Assembly: GCF_019061145.1 (NCBI RefSeq)
Contig: NZ_JAHQZS010000006.1
Location: 1-64,000 of the forward strand
Length of the DNA: 64,000 bases
Source of the DNA: Anianabacter salinae
GTDB taxonomy: Bacteria; Pseudomonadota; Alphaproteobacteria; Rhodobacterales; Rhodobacteraceae
Direction: 5' to 3'
The notes beneath the pieces were generated by a model. That model did no database searches. It was not told the origin of the DNA and was given only the letters and a program-made list of their open reading frames with translations. Made by a program: the position numbers and the translations under genes. How positions within the stretch are numbered: the first letter of the stretch is position 1; each line of letters opens with the position of its first letter. Of this stretch, positions 5,945 through 27,116 are shown one piece after another.

Positions 5945-6235
5945 TGCCCGGGCCTGCAGAACTACGCCAACATCTACAACCGCATCTACGTGCCGATGAT
6001 GCGCGATCTCGGTCTCGTGGATGGCGAGGGAAATTGCCTGTTCACGATCCACAGCCTGCGCCACGCTGCGGCGTCCCTCTTCATCGAACAAGGCTGGAAC
6101 CCGAAGAAGATCCAGACGCTGCTCGGGCACGCGAACATAACCATGACGATGGACTGCTACGGTCATCTGTTCGAGGACCCCGAGAAGGACGTCGCCATGT
6201 TCGAGAAGCTCGAGCAGGACTTCAGGGCGGCGTGA
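5945..6235 (+). pseudogene. Tyrosine recombinase (phage-type integrase) C-terminal fragment, copy 1
   Basis: The frame encodes about 96 residues of the catalytic domain end: NYANIYNRIYVPMMRDLGL, then HSLRHAAASLF (the H-x-x-R box), LLGHANITMTMDCYGH (second His and the Tyr nucleophile) and a helical tail ending QDFRAA. The core-binding domain and the first catalytic Arg are missing, so the product cannot be active alone. The breakpoint falls just after the IS21 right end. In tRNA-targeting islands the integrase usually lies next to the tRNA-proximal end, which fits its place about 2.9 kb after the first tRNA-Phe fragment. A second related fragment lies at 8681-8959. Confidence 0.85.
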
Positions 6236-6412
6236 GAAGGCCTTGCGACAACACTTGCGCGAATGCGACCGGGCTCCCGGAGCTCTGGCCGGTCGTGTGT
6301 AGCGCTATACTTTCACAAGCTGCACTTGATCCGCCAATCAGCCGACGGTCTGGTCGGTATTCGCTCTCCTGCCTTCGACGGAAGGCCGCACGCGACGAGG
6401 ACTTGATCAACC

Positions 6413-6964
6413 ATGGACCAGCAGGGCCCTGTATCGGCCATGCAGATCGCTCAGGTGCGGGCCAGTCTTGGCGCCTACGATGGCCGGTCACCGTCCGCCC
6501 TTGCGGAATTGGCAGTGCGGTTCCACAACGAGCCCGGGTTCCTCGATTGCATCGTCGACCTCGCAGCAAGTGAGGAAGAAAGGGTATCCGAAGGCGCCAC
6601 TTGGATCTTGAAGTCGGCGTTGGAGGCCGGCGGCAGCCTGGATGCAGCGCGCACCGAACGCCTGATTGCCTCGCTGGACAAGGTGACGGCATGGCAGGCA
6701 AGGCTGCACGTTTGTCAGATCGTGCGGCGGCTGGAGGTGCCTGGGGTCGACGAAGATCGGCTGCGGGCGTGGCTGCTGGACAGGCTTGGCGCCGAGCGGC
6801 CGTTTCTGCGGGCTTGGGCGCTGGATGCCCTGTGCAGTCTGGCGGGAACGGCTGACGACTCTTTGCTTGAAAAGATGGCAGAGGATCCCGCCGCGTCGGT
6901 ACGGGCCCGCGTCCGCAATCTGCGAAAGGACTTTGAGCGACGCAGACCGAAAGACAGGTCGTAG
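6413..6964 (+). CDS. HEAT-repeat-like hypothetical protein
   Basis: A 183-residue soluble protein of repeated amphipathic helices, such as LAELAVRFHNEPGFLDCIVDLAAS, WILKSALEAGG, RLHVCQIVRRLEV, LRAWALDALCSLA and DPAASVRARVRNLRKDF. The last two resemble HEAT-like repeats (W/L-A-xx-AL...dp-a-VR). Such repeats usually bind proteins; nothing indicates an enzymatic role. The start at 6413 is preceded by GAGGA at a slightly long distance, and an alternative ATG at 6440 has no such site. It lies between the integrase fragment and the serine hydrolase as apparent cargo, with no operon partner. Confidence 0.65.
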   Translation: MDQQGPVSAMQIAQVRASLGAYDGRSPSALAELAVRFHNEPGFLDCIVDLAASEEERVSEGATWILKSALEAGGSLDAARTERLIASLDKVTAWQARLHVCQIVRRLEVPGVDEDRLRAWLLDRLGAERPFLRAWALDALCSLAGTADDSLLEKMAEDPAASVRARVRNLRKDFERRRPKDRS

Positions 6965-20226: not shown

Positions 20227-21171
20227 TCAACGGAACAGACTTCCAACGCCCTTGCTCTGCGTTTCCCCGTCACCGTCTCGCAGCTGGAACAGGGCATTCA
20301 GACCACGCTCTTGTGCGCATGCTGCCCCCCTTTCGACTCCCATCACCATAAGCGCCGTTGCCCACGCGTCAGCCTCCGCGCAGGTGCGCGCCACCACGGT
20401 GACCGAGGCGGGCGAGGCAAGTAAGGGTGTCCTGCGGTCTGGGTCCATCGTATGTGACAGACGGCGGCCCCGCACCTCGACCCAGTGGCGATAGTCGCCC
20501 GAGGTAGCCACGGCAGCCTCCTCAAGCGCGAGAATGGAATGGGGCGCGCGCCGGTCCGGGTCCGGCGCCTCGACCGCGATGGTCCAGGCTTGCCCGTCCG
20601 GTCGGACCCCAAGCGCGCGCATCTCGCCGTCAATCCCGACGAGCGCATTCTCAATGCCATGGGTGCGCAGGGTGTCGGCCAGCCGATCCACGCCGTATCC
20701 CTTGGCGATACCGTTCAGATCGACCGCAACCGGCGCAGATTTGCGAACATGGGTCCCGTCGATCTCCAACGCCGTATGCGCGGGTTGGCGGTTGGCTGTC
20801 ATCGCCTCGCGGATGCGGTGTGGCGCGGCAACCTGCGGCCCAAAGCCCCAGGCCATCACCGCATCGCCCATGCCGATATCAAAGGCACCGCCCGTGGCGC
20901 GCCCGGCCTCCAGCCCAAGGCGCAAGACCTCTCGAAGCTGTTCGGGCGCCGCGACCCAATCGCCGACCGGCGCGGCGTTCAGGCGCATCAGGTCGCTGGC
21001 CTTGTTCCAGGTGGACATCTGGGCATCCACCGCGTCCACGGCGGACTGTAGCGCCGCTTGGATCGGCTCTGGATCATGGCCCTTCGCCGTAAAGAACAGC
21101 GCAGACCAGCGCGTGCCCATGGTGGCCCCGTTCAGCGCGTGGCGCGTGTGGTCAGTAGACATCTTCGACAT
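20227..21171 (-). CDS. apbE: FAD:protein FMN transferase ApbE
   Basis: A 314-residue ApbE-fold enzyme that transfers FMN from FAD to Ser/Thr of exported proteins. Visible family blocks are GATMGTRWSALF, STWNKASDLMRLN, GAFDIGMG, DLNGIAKGYGVD, ALVGIDGEMRALG, HTMDPDRRTPL and DAWATALMVMG. No N-terminal signal or lipobox is visible, which is unusual since ApbE usually acts in the periplasm; the N-terminus begins in the enzyme fold after about 10 residues. The gene overlaps the end of the PepSY-reductase gene (start 21171, stop of the upstream gene at 21152), so the two are translated together. Its likely local substrate is the DUF2271 protein two genes upstream. Confidence 0.92.
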   Translation of the reverse strand: MSKMSTDHTRHALNGATMGTRWSALFFTAKGHDPEPIQAALQSAVDAVDAQMSTWNKASDLMRLNAAPVGDWVAAPEQLREVLRLGLEAGRATGGAFDIGMGDAVMAWGFGPQVAAPHRIREAMTANRQPAHTALEIDGTHVRKSAPVAVDLNGIAKGYGVDRLADTLRTHGIENALVGIDGEMRALGVRPDGQAWTIAVEAPDPDRRAPHSILALEEAAVATSGDYRHWVEVRGRRLSHTMDPDRRTPLLASPASVTVVARTCAEADAWATALMVMGVERGAACAQERGLNALFQLRDGDGETQSKGVGSLFR

Positions 21172-23359
21172 ATCGCCCTTCTGCCTTCAGGGTCGCGGGG
21201 GTCAGCCCGGCGGGCGCGAGGATCTCGGCCAGAGTATCGGCGACGCCTGCGGCCATGTCTCGCCCGCCGCAGACCATCACGCGGGCCCCGTCCCGGATCA
21301 GTTGGGCGACTTGGGCGGCGTCGCCGCGCAGCGCGTCCTGAACATATTGAGGCTGCGTCTCACGCGACACCGCCGTGATCAGCCGGGTCAGCAAGCCCTT
21401 GCTCTGCCAGTCGCGCAGTGCCTCGCCATAAAGGAAATCGCTGCTCGGGTGGCGGATCCCGAAAAACAGGTGAATGGGCCGCTGCCGAGCGTTGCCGCGC
21501 ACAAATCCCGCCAGTGGTCCGATCCCGGTGCCTGCCCCGATCAGGATCAACGGGCCGTCGTCACCGCGCGGTTGGAAATCGGGATTGCGGCGCAAGAAGG
21601 CGGTCACGGTGTCGCCGGGCTCCAGCGCCGTGAGTTGCCCTGAACACAGGCCGCCGAGGTGCTTCTTGACCACGATTTCGACAAATCCATCGCGGCGGGC
21701 GGATGCGAGCGAATAGAGGCGCGGCACCGGGCTGCCCTCGGGCAGGATGCCGATCAGATCGCCTGCGTTGAAACGGGCAAAGCCTTGTCCGGCCAGCCGC
21801 TGCCACAGCGAAACACGCGGCAGTGCAAAGCGCAGGATTGCGGTCGGGGCCTGCACCTCTGCACCATAGTCGCGGCGCGAGATCAGGGTCAGCGCCTTGG
21901 TCCTGGGCAAGACGGGCTGATGGATGAGGTCAAGCGCGATCCCCATAGCCTGTCCGAGGTCACGCCCCCAGCGAGCGAATTCCTGCGGCGATTGGCGGTC
22001 GATCATGCCCATGGCCATAAGTCCGGGCCAGCCTTTGGCCTGTGCCGCCGCCGTGACGGCCTTGGCAAAGGCGCAGTAGGCTGGATAGCTCCGGTCGCCA
22101 AAACCAAGAACGACCAAGGGGATCTCGGGCGCGCGGTCAAGCGCGTTCAACCGATCCAGGAACCCCTTGGCCGAGGCGGGCGCATCGCCATCGCCATAGG
22201 TCGCGGCCAGCACGATCATCCGCTCGGCACGGCCATAGCGGGCCGGGTCCAACGCTGACATCGGCGCGAGATGCACGCTTTGTCCGGCCTGCGTCAGCGC
22301 GGCGTGAAGCGTCGCGGCAAAGGCCCAAGTGCTGCCGCCCTCGCTGCCGACCAGCACGATGGTCTCGGCTCGGCCTTTGGCCGAGTTGCCTCGGATTCGG
22401 GGGCGTCCACGCCGCCCGGCCAGCCAGATCAGAACGCCCGTCGCCCCCATGAGCGGCACGCCAAGCGCCATGATCCCAAGCACAAGCCCAAGCGTTGTGG
22501 CACCCTGTCCGGTGTGGAGCATGTAGATGGTTTCCGAAGTACGCTCCCACAGGGACAGATCAGCCCAGGCCAAAAGCGCCCCGGTCCCTTGATCAAGATA
22601 CCCGGTGCCCTGATCCGTCTTGAGCGTGAAGACATCCGTCGGATCACCGGGATAGGGAAAGCTCAACTCGCGCAGGGTGTCCACCGGCGTGATGCCGATC
22701 ACCGCCATGTCCGCAAACGCGATGCCTGTCTCGCCGCTGACCTCCGCCGGGAAGTCCGGCATGGCAGCATTTTCCGGGAGCACCTCAAAGGTGACGGCGA
22801 CCATCCACAGCGCGGTCACGGAGGACAGCACCAGACCAACCACCGCAATCCGGGCGATTTCCACATGCAAACGGCCCGGCGCTGTCCCGCGCAGGGGCGC
22901 GAACCAGTGTCGCCAGCCACCTGCGCGCCGCGCCACAAGGGCCGCACCGGTGACAGATAAGATCAACATCGCCAGGGCGCCCACCGCCATGACGAGACGG
23001 CCCGCATCGCCAAGCAAGAGCGAGCGGTGGAAATGGGTCAGCCAACGCTCGACCTTGTTGGGATCGGCCAATCCCGCGCCCGCGCCCGTGGCGGGATCGA
23101 TGACCGCCGCACCGGGAGAGTCGTTCTCGAACCAATAGGCGGTGATCCGGCCCGAGGGCGCGCGCCGGATTTGCTCGACCGTGGGATAGACGGCTTGAAT
23201 CCGCTCGGACAGTTGCGCGACCGTCAGGCCAGCCTCGGCCTGCGGGGCGGTCAGTTGATCCGCCGCAGGGAAGACGGAAAGCGCCGCCCCGCTGAGCGCG
23301 AGAACTGTGACAAGGGCAAGGGCCAGAAGACCCGGCCAGCGATGGAATGCACGGATCAT
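21152..23359 (-). CDS. PepSY-transmembrane/flavodoxin/NADPH-flavin reductase fusion
   Basis: 735 residues. Residues 1 to about 330 are a PepSY-TM domain: membrane helices at 8-28, about 120-143, 168-190 and 306-328, with periplasmic PepSY sequence between them. Residues about 335-480 are a flavodoxin domain (VGSEGGSTWAFA, ATYGDGDAPASAKGF, GFGDRSYPAYCAFAK). The rest is a sulfite-reductase-type FAD/NADPH domain with RLYSLASA, GGLCSGQL, GAGTGIGPLAGFVRG, MVCGGRDMA and the C-terminal YVEDVY. The layout predicts electrons from cytoplasmic NADPH passing via FAD and FMN into the membrane part and out to periplasmic acceptors. It is followed by overlapping apbE and preceded by the DUF2271 gene. Family members are linked to iron or flavin reduction; the acceptor here is unknown. 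Confidence 0.9.
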   Translation of the reverse strand: MIRAFHRWPGLLALALVTVLALSGAALSVFPAADQLTAPQAEAGLTVAQLSERIQAVYPTVEQIRRAPSGRITAYWFENDSPGAAVIDPATGAGAGLADPNKVERWLTHFHRSLLLGDAGRLVMAVGALAMLILSVTGAALVARRAGGWRHWFAPLRGTAPGRLHVEIARIAVVGLVLSSVTALWMVAVTFEVLPENAAMPDFPAEVSGETGIAFADMAVIGITPVDTLRELSFPYPGDPTDVFTLKTDQGTGYLDQGTGALLAWADLSLWERTSETIYMLHTGQGATTLGLVLGIMALGVPLMGATGVLIWLAGRRGRPRIRGNSAKGRAETIVLVGSEGGSTWAFAATLHAALTQAGQSVHLAPMSALDPARYGRAERMIVLAATYGDGDAPASAKGFLDRLNALDRAPEIPLVVLGFGDRSYPAYCAFAKAVTAAAQAKGWPGLMAMGMIDRQSPQEFARWGRDLGQAMGIALDLIHQPVLPRTKALTLISRRDYGAEVQAPTAILRFALPRVSLWQRLAGQGFARFNAGDLIGILPEGSPVPRLYSLASARRDGFVEIVVKKHLGGLCSGQLTALEPGDTVTAFLRRNPDFQPRGDDGPLILIGAGTGIGPLAGFVRGNARQRPIHLFFGIRHPSSDFLYGEALRDWQSKGLLTRLITAVSRETQPQYVQDALRGDAAQVAQLIRDGARVMVCGGRDMAAGVADTLAEILAPAGLTPATLKAEGRYVEDVY

Positions 23360-23371
23360 GACCCGCCCCCT

Positions 23372-23842
23372 CTACATGTCGTAGGAAAAATCCGCGATGT
23401 AGCGACGACCCTTCACGAGGGTTCCCCTCCCGCCTGACGTCAGCGGCACCGACACTTCGTTCGGGCTGTCGCGCATATCCTCGACAGAGGCGTCGATGTG
23501 CAGCGTGTAGCCCGCATCGAACAGCGCGTCGGCCAGGTCGAGGGTTATCTCAAGCGACCGGCCCGCGCCGACGCTGGCGCCTGTGATCCCGTTGACCTGC
23601 GCGGTGTCGCCCCCTGTGGCGCGATACCATCCGGTCAGATGATTGTAATACTTCGACTTTCCGCCAGCCATCCAGAGAGTGCCGACATAGGTGTCCGAAG
23701 CGTCCGTCACGTACAGCGCGAGATAGGCACCATCGCCGCCGTAGGACGTGAGGTTGGTGGTCAAGGTGACCTGTCGCGCCATGGCAAGGCCGGGCATCGT
23801 CAGGGCCGTGGTCAGCACGAGTGTAGAAAGAAGGGATTTCAT
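23372..23842 (-). CDS. Exported DUF2271-like protein, possible flavinylated carrier
   Basis: 156 residues with a signal peptide (LLSTLVLTTALTMPGLAMA). The body has DUF2271-like features: AYLALYVTDASDTYVGTLWMAGGKSKYYNHLTGWYR, and a C-terminal half ending GRRYIADFSYDM. Residues 84-94 read NGITGASVGAG. This resembles the [S/T]GA[T/S] motif in which ApbE attaches FMN to Ser/Thr in FMN-binding proteins such as NqrC and RnfG (Ser90 would be the acceptor). DUF2271 proteins are known to occur beside ApbE and PepSY genes. The gene stops 12 bp before the reductase gene starts, so the three form one operon. Confidence 0.78.
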   Translation of the reverse strand: MKSLLSTLVLTTALTMPGLAMARQVTLTTNLTSYGGDGAYLALYVTDASDTYVGTLWMAGGKSKYYNHLTGWYRATGGDTAQVNGITGASVGAGRSLEITLDLADALFDAGYTLHIDASVEDMRDSPNEVSVPLTSGGRGTLVKGRRYIADFSYDM

Positions 23843-23883
23843 CGGGTTTATCCTGTTGCTGGAAGGGCGGGCGTCAAAGGCGC

Positions 23884-24276
23884 TCAGTTCACCTTGACCT
23901 TCGGCGGCGTGCCGGTGCCGAACAGGCCGTTTTGCGGCGGGGCCACGGTGCCAGCCGGGGCCGGATTGCCGACAGCCGTGCCGTAGTCGTCGTCGTCGTC
24001 ATCGTCGTCCTCGTATTCCATCTCGACGACCTGCATCGTCGCCGGGTCGAGCTTGACCTCGATCTCCCGACCGTCCGCGTCGCGGCCCTTGATCTCGAAG
24101 CAGCCATCGTCGACTTCAAAGTTCCGAACGGTCCAGCCATTGTCCTGCGCCACCTGAAGCGCAGCTTCGCGGGGCTGCCACTGGGTGCGCGGCACAGAGC
24201 AGTCGTCGTCATCGGCAAGCGCGGCACCTGCGGGCAGCAGCGCAGCAATCGTCAGCATCGTCAGGGTCTTTTTCAT
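23884..24276 (-). CDS. Exported small PepSY-domain protein with poly-Asp tract
   Basis: 130 residues: signal peptide MKKTLTMLTIAALLPAGAALA, then a PepSY_2-type domain (WQPREAALQVAQDNGWTVRNFEVDDGCFEIKGRDADGREIEVKLDPATMQVVEME). An uninterrupted run of eight Asp follows, then a Pro/Gly-rich tail of about 35 residues. Two Cys (DDDCSVP and DDGCFEI) could form a disulfide. The ATG at 24276 has AGGAG at the right distance, and a signal sequence begins at once; an upstream frame to 24339 is not used. First gene of the group with DUF2271, reductase and ApbE; the 18-bp box lies 77-94 bp upstream. Confidence 0.85.
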   Translation of the reverse strand: MKKTLTMLTIAALLPAGAALADDDDCSVPRTQWQPREAALQVAQDNGWTVRNFEVDDGCFEIKGRDADGREIEVKLDPATMQVVEMEYEDDDDDDDDYGTAVGNPAPAGTVAPPQNGLFGTGTPPKVKVN

Positions 24277-24352: not shown

Positions 24353-24370
24353 GCTTCAGCTTGCTGTCAG
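24353..24370 (-). promoter_or_regulatory. Putative response-regulator box upstream of PepSY operon
   Basis: On the minus strand this reads CTGACAGCAAGCTGAAGC: two CTGA half-sites 11 bp apart, the spacing used by OmpR-family regulators. It matches at 14 of 18 positions the box at 25015-25032 in front of the neighbouring response-regulator gene. It lies just downstream of the terminator hairpin of the preceding gene. Confidence 0.6.
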
Positions 24371-24403: not shown

Positions 24404-24657
24404 AATGCAGGCCGAAGGGAAAGTTGGCCTTGGGTTTGTTGGATAGCCTCCGGCTCAGGCGCCCGCAGGGTGTGTGCAAGATAGCGCTGTTCATTGCCGC
24501 CGGTCCTGTCCTTGAGATAGGCAAGCGGTGCTCTCGGCCCTTTCGTGAATTGGGCAAAGCGCGCGTAGCGCGTGCCGATCAGTCCCCGGACAAGACGGAC
24601 GGCCAAAAGGCCCGCGACGGGCCGCTTGTCTCATGGGCGACGGCATGGGACGCGCGA

Positions 24658-24963
24658 TCAGTCATCGTCATGGCCTTCGATTTTGTCCTCGTCCTCGTCC
24701 TCGTATTCGAACTCGATCACTTCGAGCGTGGCCGGATGGACCGTGACCTCGATCTGTCGGCCCGCGGCATCGAGGCCCTCGATCTCATAACAGCCATCGT
24801 CGATCTTGATCCGGCGAGCGGTCCAGCCATTGCTCTTGGCAAGCTCTGCAACCGCGTCTCTGGGCTGCCAGTTCTCCATCGGGACAAAGCAATCATCATC
24901 CGCCAGCGCCGGGCTGGCCGTGCAAATGGCGAGGCAGGCAAGCATCATGGATGTCTTTCGCAT
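24658..24963 (-). CDS. Exported small PepSY-domain protein, acidic C-terminus
   Basis: 101 residues: signal peptide MRKTSMMLACLAICTASPALA, then a PepSY_2 domain very like that of the protein at 23884-24276 (ENWQPRDAVAELAKSNGWTARRIKIDDGCYEIEGLDAAGRQIEVTVHPATLEVIEFEYEDEDEDK). The two cysteines are conserved. The two genes look like a duplication. It is divergent from the two-component genes, ends in its own terminator, and may be the first target of the response regulator through the box at 25015-25032. Small PepSY proteins are often strongly induced by such systems; their molecular role is not settled. Confidence 0.85.
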   Translation of the reverse strand: MRKTSMMLACLAICTASPALADDDCFVPMENWQPRDAVAELAKSNGWTARRIKIDDGCYEIEGLDAAGRQIEVTVHPATLEVIEFEYEDEDEDKIEGHDDD

Positions 24964-25014: not shown

Positions 25015-25032
25015 CTGACGGGAGACTGAAGC
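25015..25032 (+). promoter_or_regulatory. Putative response-regulator box in the divergent promoter region
   Basis: CTGACGGGAGACTGAAGC, with two CTGA half-sites 11 bp apart, lies between the divergent PepSY gene (start 24963) and the response-regulator gene (start 25114). It matches the box at 24353-24370 at 14 of 18 positions. Confidence 0.6.
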
Positions 25033-25113
25033 GCTTTGTCCACCGGCGTAAGCTTTGCGTCAGTCAGGCAGGCCATGCCTGGGGTTCCGAGCATGAATGG
25101 GAACAGAGCCGCC

Positions 25114-25773
25114 ATGCGTATCCTGCTGATCGAGGATGACACCGTTTTGGGCCCCGCCGTGCGGGACCAGATCGCCGCCGATGGCCAGTCCGTCGATTGG
25201 GTGACGCGGCTGGATGCGGCAGGCGAGGCGGTGCGCGGCGCGTCCTATGACCTGATCCTGCTGGATCTGATGCTGCCCGATGGCCGCGGGGTCGGGTTCC
25301 TCAAGACCCTGCGCAAGCAAGGCGATGTGACACCCGTCATCATCCTGACCGCGCTGGATCAGGTGTCAGACCGGATCGAGGGGCTGAATGCCGGGGCGGA
25401 CGACTATCTGGTCAAACCCTTCGATCTGGCCGAGTTGTCCGCGCGGATCGGGTCGGTCGGGCGGCGCTACAGCGGCAATCCGAACCCGATCATCAGCCAC
25501 GGCTCGCTCGACATCGACCTTGCCGCCCGCAGTATCCACAAAGCTGGCAAGCCCGTGCAGCTGACCGCCCGCGAATGGGCGTTGTTCGGGGCCTTCCTGG
25601 CGCGTCCCGGCCAGCTTCTGTCCAAGGCGCAGCTTGAAGAAAAGCTCTATGCTTTCGATACGGAGGTCGAAAGCAACACCATCGAAGTCCATGTCAGCCG
25701 TCTGCGCAAGAAGCTTGGGTCAGATCTGATCGAAACCGAGCGCGGCATGGGCTACCGGTTGGGCAAAGCATGA
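25114..25773 (+). CDS. OmpR-family response regulator (QseB/PmrA-like)
   Basis: A 219-residue regulator. The receiver domain has acidic pocket EDD (7-9), phospho-acceptor Asp51 (LLDLMLPDG), a Thr in ILTALDQ and Lys in VKPFDLAEL. The C-terminal winged helix ends VESNTIEVHVSRLRKKLG...TERGMGYRLG. The ATG at 25114 begins MRILLIEDD as usual for the family; upstream in-frame codons have no family match. It overlaps the kinase gene by ATGA. Given the divergent PepSY gene and the shared 18-bp box, it probably activates the PepSY, DUF2271 and ApbE genes. Confidence 0.93.
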   Translation: MRILLIEDDTVLGPAVRDQIAADGQSVDWVTRLDAAGEAVRGASYDLILLDLMLPDGRGVGFLKTLRKQGDVTPVIILTALDQVSDRIEGLNAGADDYLVKPFDLAELSARIGSVGRRYSGNPNPIISHGSLDIDLAARSIHKAGKPVQLTAREWALFGAFLARPGQLLSKAQLEEKLYAFDTEVESNTIEVHVSRLRKKLGSDLIETERGMGYRLGKA

Positions 25774-27116
25774 GACTGCCGCGCAGCCTACAGGCGCGGC
25801 TGGGGCTGTCGGTCGGTCTGGTTCTTGCGGTCTGCTGGATATTTGCGGCGACGGCGACGGCCGTTCTGGTGCGTCATGAAATGGACGAGGTGTTCGACGC
25901 GGCGCTGCGCGAGACGGCCGAACGCATCCTGCCCTTGGCCGTGACCGAAATCATCGGTCGCGAAGAGCAAGGTCTGACTCAAAGGCTCGCTGCTATTCGC
26001 GCCCATGACGAGTTCTTCACCTATGTCGTGCGCGATCCTCATGGCCGTATCCTGCTGCAATCACATGCCGCCGACCCGTCGGTGTTTCCGCCCTATGACA
26101 GGCCTGGGTTTCATGACACCGCGACCCACCGGCTCTATAGCGCTGCGGTGCTTCAGGAAACGATCCGCATCACCGTCGCGGAACCGTTGGACCATCGCCA
26201 AGAGGTTGCACGGAATATCCAGATGGGGCTTGGCCTGCCTCTGATGATTGTCTTGCCCATCGCGCTTGCGGCCATCGTCTTTGCCGTGCGCCGGAACCTC
26301 GCCCCGCTGCGCCACTTTCGCGCCAGTCTGGAGACCCGAAATGCGCGGGACCTGTCCTCGGTTCCCGCGCATGATCTGCCTGCCGAGATCGGCCCGGTCG
26401 CCACCACGCTCAACAGCCTTCTGGCGCGGCTGCATTCCGCGTTCGAGGCCGAGCGCAGCTTTGCTGCCAATGCAGCGCATGAGCTGCGCACGCCGCTCGC
26501 CGGAGCCATCGCACAGGCGCAGCGCCTGCAGTCCGAGACCGCCGACCCGGCTGCCAAGGCCCGCGCCGGAGAGATCGAGACAACGCTCAAACGGCTTACG
26601 CGCCTGTCCGAACGGCTCATGCAACTTGCAAGGGCCGAAGGTGGGCGGCTTCGCATGGACCAAAGCGCCGACCTGCGCACCGTCGCGGAACTCGTGGTGC
26701 AGGACATCGAGCGCATGAGTGCGCCAGAGCGTATCGTGCTGAGCTTGCCCGAAACGCCGGTCATGTCGGACCTGGATCCCGACGCCTTCGGAATACTGTG
26801 CCGAAATCTTGTCGAAAACGCCGTGCGTCATGGCGCTATGACCTCGCCGGTCGAGGTGATGTTGACGTCTGACGGGCAACTTGTCGTGGCAAACGACGGC
26901 CCAGTCCTGCCGCGCGACGCTCTGGACCGGCTGACAACCCGTTTTGAACGAGCGGGCTCAAACACCGATGGCAGCGGGCTGGGCCTTGCCATCGTTGCCG
27001 CCATCACGGACCGGTTCGGAAGCCCGCTTGTTCTCGCGTCGCCAAGGCCGGGTTCTGAAACCGGTTTCCAGGCCAGCGTGAATCTACCGACAGAGGTTGC
27101 CGGCGCTTGGTCATGA
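25770..27116 (+). CDS. Sensor histidine kinase (QseC/PmrB-like)
   Basis: 448 residues. There are two membrane spans (LSVGLVLAVCWIFAATATAVLV and about 150-170, MGLGLPLMIVLPIALAAIVFAV) around a periplasmic sensor of about 120 residues, a short linker, and an H-box NAAHELRTPLAG with His237. The ATPase domain has N-box LCRNLVENAVRHG, VANDGPVLP and GSGLGLAIVAAI. The sensor region has no recognisable fold and no metal-binding cluster. Forms an operon with the preceding response regulator. Signal unknown; the target genes suggest an envelope redox, metal or acidity cue. Confidence 0.92.
   Translation: MRLPRSLQARLGLSVGLVLAVCWIFAATATAVLVRHEMDEVFDAALRETAERILPLAVTEIIGREEQGLTQRLAAIRAHDEFFTYVVRDPHGRILLQSHAADPSVFPPYDRPGFHDTATHRLYSAAVLQETIRITVAEPLDHRQEVARNIQMGLGLPLMIVLPIALAAIVFAVRRNLAPLRHFRASLETRNARDLSSVPAHDLPAEIGPVATTLNSLLARLHSAFEAERSFAANAAHELRTPLAGAIAQAQRLQSETADPAAKARAGEIETTLKRLTRLSERLMQLARAEGGRLRMDQSADLRTVAELVVQDIERMSAPERIVLSLPETPVMSDLDPDAFGILCRNLVENAVRHGAMTSPVEVMLTSDGQLVVANDGPVLPRDALDRLTTRFERAGSNTDGSGLGLAIVAAITDRFGSPLVLASPRPGSETGFQASVNLPTEVAGAWS

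Follow-up and report, generated by a model that had tools for sequence, protein, structure and literature searches.

The PepSY-like flavinylation systems described in PMC8238504 combine a PepSY_TM membrane protein, a DUF2271 protein with an [S/T]GA[S/T] motif, and ApbE, a flavin adenine dinucleotide (FAD):protein flavin mononucleotide (FMN) transferase. That work reports a NAD-binding domain on a subset of the systems (1077 PepSY-like genes), links to VIT transporters and iron, and the motif in 282 flavinylation-associated DUF2271 proteins; it also reports that the DUF2271 protein of A. ursilacus is flavinylated by its own ApbE, and that replacing the acceptor Thr by Ala abolishes the modification. 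A related PepSY/DUF2271 operon of Caulobacter (CCNA_03155–03159) is described as a Fur target whose disruption lowers fitness in ethylenediaminetetraacetic acid (EDTA) (PMC12004947). Here we describe a locus of this kind in Anianabacter salinae, located within positions 1–64,000 of contig NZ_JAHQZS010000006.1 (assembly GCF_019061145.1; the genome is 95% complete), a stretch of DNA hereafter called the window. Its ApbE has no visible export signal, whereas the apparent substrate of that enzyme, a DUF2271 protein, carries one, and the new and testable point raised by the locus is where the flavin is attached.

Loci of the window type have in common with the PepSY-like flavinylation systems the PepSY_TM protein, the DUF2271 protein with its motif, ApbE, a NAD-binding domain, and VIT and iron links (PMC8238504). 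They differ in having a single PepSY–flavodoxin–reductase chain, their own two-component system with operator boxes, a protein with a conserved NGLF tail, and a flavinylation motif built on Asn or Asp and Ser rather than on Asp and Thr; DUF4198 is absent among the genes identified in the operon. The Caulobacter operon likewise shares a PepSY membrane protein, a DUF2271 protein, a flavin-dependent reductase and a link to iron, but is reported to include a DUF4198 protein and to answer to Fur, whereas loci of the window type share their promoter region with a two-component system (PMC12004947). The operon is a genuine relative of a known bacterial electron ‘wire’, with metals beyond the inner membrane as its probable (and here inferred) substrate. 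Going by its sequence, it belongs to the PepSY-like flavinylation class, looks functional and appears to represent a two-component-linked and mobile variant.

The operon, its acceptor motif and a leaderless ApbE

Four genes lie on the minus strand in the order PepSY_2, DUF2271, PepSY_TM–flavodoxin–reductase and ApbE. The last of these, encoding a 314-residue ApbE (20227–21171; Pfam ApbE, 258.8 bits), overlaps by 20 base pairs (bp) the gene for a 735-residue fusion protein (21152–23359) that contains PepSY_TM (PF03929; 108.2 bits against a cut-off of 28.8), flavodoxin (50.6 bits) and NAD_binding_1 (43.1 bits) domains, and whose NAD(P)H reductase half matches CysJ and P450 reductases. Ahead of the fusion lie the genes for a 156-residue DUF2271 protein (PF10029, 114.7 bits; 23372–23842) and for a secreted, 130-residue PepSY_2 protein with an acidic run and the NGLF tail (101.2 bits; 23884–24276). 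A first-pass annotation of this sequence had assigned ApbE, the fusion and the DUF2271 protein to one operon, and the genes are indeed found at those positions and on that strand. The extent that it gave to the unit was correct for these four genes and too narrow overall, since a second PepSY_2 gene (24658–24963) and the genes for a response regulator and sensor kinase (25114–27116) also belong to it; the two-component system and its boxes had been missed.

The predicted flavin acceptor is the last residue of N-G-I-T-G-A-S, residues 84–90 of the DUF2271 protein (23573–23593, minus strand), within the longer stretch NGITGASVGAG (residues 84–94). TGAS ends in Ser90 (codon 23573–23575), as previously numbered, and fits [S/T]GA[S/T] exactly. 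Conservation of the motif in ApbE-linked homologues had been set beforehand as a test that could refute the proposal, and the motif proved to be conserved: in an alignment of 45 relatives retrieved by the Pfam profile (the window and 44 of 52 fetched regions, L095–L102 giving no window-type DUF2271 match), Ser90 and Gly88 are identical in all 45, Ala89 in 44 and Thr87 in 42, with L071 reading TGGS. Ser90 is invariant as well in a 40-row alignment, A1, that comprises a subset of those relatives and five further loci and leaves out near-duplicates, L094 and four rows (L069, L078, L088 and L092) whose start is unclear. TGAS is also present in each of 80 named loci (the best 80 of 546 confirmed relatives), which is weaker evidence because the motif was one of three search seeds. 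Counts given here and below are of loci and not of independent events, because genomes apparently recur between the named and the first set (L208/L054, L201/L067 and L232/L063, respectively) and many loci are more than 93% identical.

Six positions before the acceptor, where the canonical D-x-x-[S/T]-G-A-[S/T] motif requires Asp, the window has Asn84. Asn is found there in 70 of the 80 named loci, with Asp in nine and Ser in one, and Asp occurs in 12 of the 45 relatives of the first set. Several classical DUF2271 proteins have Asp at this position and Thr at the end of the motif, while some lack the Asp. A review calls the Asp strictly conserved, yet reports that its replacement by Ala has a minor effect (PMC12052999). 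The DUF2271 model (pLDDT 87.7) has seven strands in a predicted beta-strand fold, and places the motif in a loop between a helix (residues 70–76) and a strand (96–104); comparison of the model with the PDB returned nothing at E ≤0.001 (best 0.044), and a profile search of PDB sequences returned one match, at E 0.66. Ser90 is a sound proposal for the acceptor, being invariant and part of an exact motif, with covalent FMN a prediction at this locus. The first-pass annotation had considered a defined acceptor in this family to be new, but flavinylation of DUF2271 at [S/T]GA[S/T] was already reported in 2021 (PMC8238504).

The DUF2271 protein begins with a Sec-type signal (approximately residues 1–22, ending in AMA) that has no twin arginine. 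We scored leaders as the best 10-residue hydropathy within the first 35 residues, for every possible start, and found values of at least 1.64 in 40 of 40 A1 rows. Twin-arginine export was considered and rejected, with RR within the first 15 residues in none of those rows.

The ApbE that would modify this exported protein shows no such leader, a feature that had escaped the earlier reading. Its fold begins about 13 residues past the start; a missed upstream start was rejected, since a stop codon closes the frame a few codons ahead of the ATG. The same is seen throughout the related operons: 131 loci were examined, and in all 122 that could be scored the operon ApbE lacks a signal peptide at any start (107 distinct sequences; maximum score 1.33, median 0.035). 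(The nine unscoreable loci are L057, L081, L183, L184, L224 and L234, which end early; L092, with broken frames; L155, without an ApbE match; and L095, which is not of the window type.) As a control, 25 of 25 non-operon ApbEs from the same bacterial family, drawn from the 30 best loci returned and not at random, score at least 1.81, and 24 of them have a lipobox-like stretch. Since neither the signal peptide nor the lipobox of classical exported (lipoprotein) ApbEs is found in the window or the 122 scored loci, we file the window enzyme as ApbE-family and, as judged from its sequence, outside the exported class. ApbEs of the classical DUF2271 operons L131, L132 and L134 also begin directly at the fold, and the leaders of others (such as L097, L098, L137 and L148) are ambiguous.

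For an ApbE without a visible export signal, periplasmic flavin loading does not follow. The combination of a leaderless ApbE and a DUF2271 protein with a Sec signal implies that the flavin is attached before Sec export, or that ApbE is exported by a route not yet recognized, or that ApbE has another target. We believe that the flavin is probably attached before export. Flavinylation of a DUF2271 protein in E. coli has been reported with the leaders of both DUF2271 and ApbE removed (PMC8238504), and the chemistry should therefore be possible in the cytosol. SecY is reported to open to perhaps ∼2.4 nm and may pass bulky groups (PMC6028853); the usual rule, as given in work on Listeria, is that Sec substrates need an extracytosolic supply of cofactor (PMC9973259). 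We found no report of a leaderless ApbE paired with an exported substrate in a literature search limited to open-licence papers.

Electron path, acceptor and site of flavin attachment

The gene content fits a wire from NADPH (reduced nicotinamide adenine dinucleotide phosphate) through a diflavin reductase and a di-heme PepSY domain to a flavin protein, and the previously suggested route from NADPH to the periplasm remains plausible. Electrons from NADPH would enter the cytosolic diflavin reductase part of the fusion and traverse the membrane via a PepSY_TM domain with two hemes. Four histidines of that domain are conserved (His6 in 123 of 123 sequences; His111, His165 and His282 in 124 of 124), and by analogy could ligate two bis-His hemes like those of the FoxB-type core (PMC11334425). 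A second flavin acceptor within the fusion was considered and rejected: [S/T]GA[S/T] is sporadic among the 124 sequences, its commonest form occurring six times. From the hemes, electrons would pass to the DUF2271 protein in the periplasm, whose Ser90 would bear covalent FMN, and this protein would in turn reduce an acceptor in the same compartment. The likeliest acceptor is ferric iron, or another metal that is handled together with the VIT and P-type ATPase transporters encoded in linkage. In the scheme that we propose, the leaderless ApbE would place FMN on the DUF2271 precursor in the cytosol and Sec would export the flavinylated chain, while a divergently encoded PmrAB/QseBC-like pair would sense a metal or the redox state of the periplasm, a small PepSY_2 protein probably acting as modulator, and would control its own genes and the module through the boxes. 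We lean towards this description of the locus, as a two-component-controlled electron-export module that loads its FMN before export and reduces a periplasmic metal. The broader proposal seems to us evenly balanced: that throughout this branch a cytosolic ApbE loads FMN before Sec, that SecYEG moves the FMN-bearing chain, and that the NGLF tail, carried on interchangeable acidic bodies, serves as a periplasmic docking piece.

It is possible, if rather doubtful, that the wire reduces not iron but copper, a quinone or some oxidised protein of the envelope, with the linked ATPase marking a general metal-stress module. In 62 of 130 related loci the linked genes include one for a P-type ATPase akin to a Cd-family one, the PepSY_TM protein CrpH is described as supporting heme-copper oxidoreductase function (PMC13038864), and a small PepSY protein is reported to bind lanthanides (PMC11845868). 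VIT transporters, however, are linked equally often (62 of the 130 loci, with both families in 51; these are counts over fetched stretches often cut by contig ends, and the two families were named on one plasmid copy), while the kinase carries an ExxE motif that is reported from iron-sensing kinases (PMC12666569), and the Caulobacter relative, with its Fur control and EDTA phenotype, also points to iron (PMC12004947).

We regard it as unlikely that the DUF2271 protein is instead flavinylated in the periplasm, either because the operon ApbE is exported by an unrecognized route or because an exported ApbE is encoded elsewhere. A periplasmic location was essential for ApbE function in an early study, according to a review (PMC12052999), and some operon-bearing genomes of the bacterial family hold further ApbEs, those in G002 and G130 having lipobox-like leaders. 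Against this, the leaderless operon ApbE is the single ApbE match in five genomes (G000, G003, G064, G095 and G103), one of which is a single contig, and the absence of a leader is kept across all 107 distinct sequences. (G060 was excluded from this group; it also has one ApbE match, not listed by place, and its operon, L092, is broken across frames.) Less likely still, to the point of being very improbable, is that the operon ApbE serves another, cytosolic protein, as does the Klebsiella pneumoniae ApbE that likewise has no signal peptide but is reported to have a soluble fumarate reductase as its target (PMC12052999), where the apparent substrate in the window is exported: the five single-ApbE genomes gave no matches to FMN_bind or NqrB/RnfD, the substrate families that were searched, the motif is sporadic in the fusion, and Ser90 is invariant.

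Several observations weigh against cytosolic loading and the wider scheme. The leader score is a simple hydropathy measure and not a SignalP prediction, and G003 alone among the five genomes with a single ApbE is represented by one contig. L102 and L150 encode ApbE and DUF2271 in one frame and score as having a leader, so that periplasmic loading, which is likely in those two proteins judging from their leaders, exists in the wider family. L155 is a module of the window type in which no ApbE was detected although its stretch runs past the reductase gene, and in L086 and L104 ApbE is not adjacent. The motif of the window and of most named loci has Asn and not Asp six positions before the acceptor, and flavinylation is reported to be lower with a Ser than with a Thr acceptor (PMC12052999). 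The window locus itself has no VIT or P-type ATPase match, and the only VIT matches in the genome lie away from it. Finally, the covalent flavin, the hemes, the reduction of metal and the regulation are all predictions from sequence.

The two-component system, operator boxes and small PepSY proteins

The regulator gene (25114–25773, plus strand; scanned as 25075–25773, with the conserved start MRILLIEDD at 25114) encodes a PmrA/QseB-like member of the OmpR family and is followed on the same strand by a gene for a QseC/PmrB-like sensor kinase (25770–27116) with ExxE at residues 37–40. E37xxE40 is kept in 102 of 118 kinases; E48xxE51 is kept in only 62, and a strict RExxE sensor motif was rejected on that count. 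His79, His99, His120 and His142 of the kinase N-terminal region, together with acidic residues 81 and 89, are each kept in more than 85% of the 118 sequences, and are possible metal ligands.

Direct repeats with a pitch of 11 bp typify OmpR-family regulators. The DNA between the regulator gene and the operon's first gene contains a dyad of two such repeats, CTGACG-N5-CTGAAG and CTTCAG-N5-CGTCAG, separated by 15 or 16 bp. In the window these are the box CTTCAGTCTCCCGTCAG (25015–25031, minus strand) and, 15 bp from it, the mirror box CGTAAGCTTTGCGTCAG (25047–25063, plus strand), which has 10 of the 12 consensus positions. In 114 loci with a recognizable regulator start, both boxes have at least 9 of 12 positions in 113 (76 distinct pairs), as against 0.9% of shuffles, and at least 10 of 12 in 90% of loci, as against no shuffles. 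A third box, CTTCAGCTTGCTGTCAG (24354–24370, plus strand), begins 94 bp before the start of the PepSY_2/tail gene. Of 109 loci, 91 have a box outside the dyad and ahead of the tail gene, 90 of them with 11 or 12 of 12 positions (shuffled stretches reached 10 in 1.6% and never higher) and 86 of them at a distance of 90–99 bp; in the remaining loci the tail gene follows directly behind the dyad (10 of 109) or there is no third box (8 of 109). The exact operator pattern occurs twice in the genome, both times at this locus, but a backward control pattern occurs four times, and only the placement of the boxes is therefore informative. At two mismatches the window holds 10 boxes, which does not stand out from shuffles (mean 6.3, with 11 in 100 reaching 10). 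Through binding of the regulator, these boxes would place the pair and the redox operon under shared control.

The second small PepSY_2 protein (101 residues, secreted; 24658–24963, minus strand) is encoded closest to the two-component system, and the locus has in common with DbfQRS and with BqsRS and PA2658 a small secreted PepSY protein beside (here within four genes of) a kinase/regulator pair (PMC12714742, PMC12666569); ExxE is likewise common to BqsS and the window kinase (PMC12666569). It differs from both, as they are described there, in having as its output a redox operon with which the promoter region is shared, and in its two PepSY_2 proteins, one of them NGLF-tailed. A small Vibrio PepSY protein encoded next to such a pair is reported to push the kinase toward phosphatase activity (PMC12714742), and by analogy this is the likeliest role for the PepSY_2 protein nearest the pair. 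Small PepSY partners had been put forward as a new point of this locus; such proteins beside two-component systems are already described (PMC12714742), and what is less expected is the NGLF tail and the place of these proteins in a redox operon.

The tail protein, encoded ahead of DUF2271, has a signal-like start and ends approximately in NPAPAGTVAPPxNGLFxxGxPPxVxVN; in the window the conserved C-terminal tail is NPAPAGTVAPPQNGLFGTGTPPKVKVN (23887–23967, minus strand). Alignment of 19 tails shows PP, NGLF and a single P further along to be invariant. Of the 80 named loci 78 encode the protein, as do 31 of 50 in the first set, and its body is variable, with PepSY_2 in 46 of 109 and an acidic, Asp-rich stretch in 63 of 109; Pfam held no family for the one acidic-body protein searched. 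A tail profile run against 61 genomes (in many of which the best 131 candidates were scored) gave nine strong matches, one per genome and all adjoining the DUF2271 gene, and a tenth, weak match (E 0.003); within the same draw it gave none in G012, G023, G028, G039 and G060, all of which have PF10029. The model of the window protein is confident over the PepSY_2 domain but of low confidence over the tail, which would suit a linear docking motif.

Distribution and mobility

Within the bacterial family to which A. salinae belongs, 40 of 198 genomes gave PF10029 matches (39 over the cut-off); the corresponding figures are 22 of 190 (10 over) for the class and 33 of 249 (30 over) for the phylum. 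ApbE is present in 76 of the 80 named loci, and the other four (L183, L184, L224 and L234) end early. A b561-type cytochrome match occurs in 28 of the 80, two of which (L168 and L201) hold only short pieces; the window itself has a remnant of such a gene (24469–24618, minus strand; 50 residues aligned, 68% identical to the L054 gene), which sits between its two PepSY_2 genes. A ferric-reductase-like protein is found in 25 of the 80 loci, in 24 of them encoded in the interval from the first PepSY_2 gene to the tail gene, and at L067 that interval contains an extra gene (6072–6705, plus strand), whose product has a signal-like start and matches nothing in Pfam.

Stretches of 9–14 kilobases (kb) shared between genera are 94.7–99.95% identical. 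Mesorhizobium and Labrenzia records agree at 98.3% over 14.3 kb, and records from Paracoccus and Mesorhizobium, which belong to different orders, at 98.4% over 6.8 kb; near-identical copies from different genera are found among L162, L177–L181, L186, L188–L189, L191, L193, L197–L198, L202–L203, L207, L212, L228–L229 and L232. The 8-kb stretch of L177 matches 63 plasmid records, 48 of them over at least 80% of its length; 50 of the 63 plasmids are predicted to be conjugative and 38 are from Pseudosulfitobacter, and among the matches listed these plasmids come mostly from marine diatom cultures. The gene order on one Pseudosulfitobacter plasmid is kinase, regulator, PepSY, ferredoxin reductase, PepSY, DUF2271, PepSY, ApbE, cadA and VIT. 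More broadly, DUF2271 relatives are found on 97 plasmid records (71 predicted to be conjugative), among them more distant relatives carried by replicons of enterobacteria and of Cupriavidus. A related module, L284 on the Klebsiella michiganensis plasmid pKLO00015_4, has ferric reductase, PepSY, DUF2271, PepSY and VIT1 genes; ApbE is not listed for the Klebsiella and Shinella plasmid stretches, whose gene tables are incomplete.

The near-identical copies across genera and orders indicate that a complete electron-export module is moving, often with metal transporter genes, and its conserved boxes provide a ready-made regulon to test. The membrane side on which ApbE works, and the source of its FAD, matter for every flavinylated electron-transfer protein, and a branch in which the sole detected ApbE is leaderless and the substrate Sec-led makes the question testable on one precursor band. 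If FMN is indeed loaded before export, a periplasmic supply of FAD would no longer be needed, and the usual picture of Sec-exported proteins acquiring their cofactors outside would be broken.

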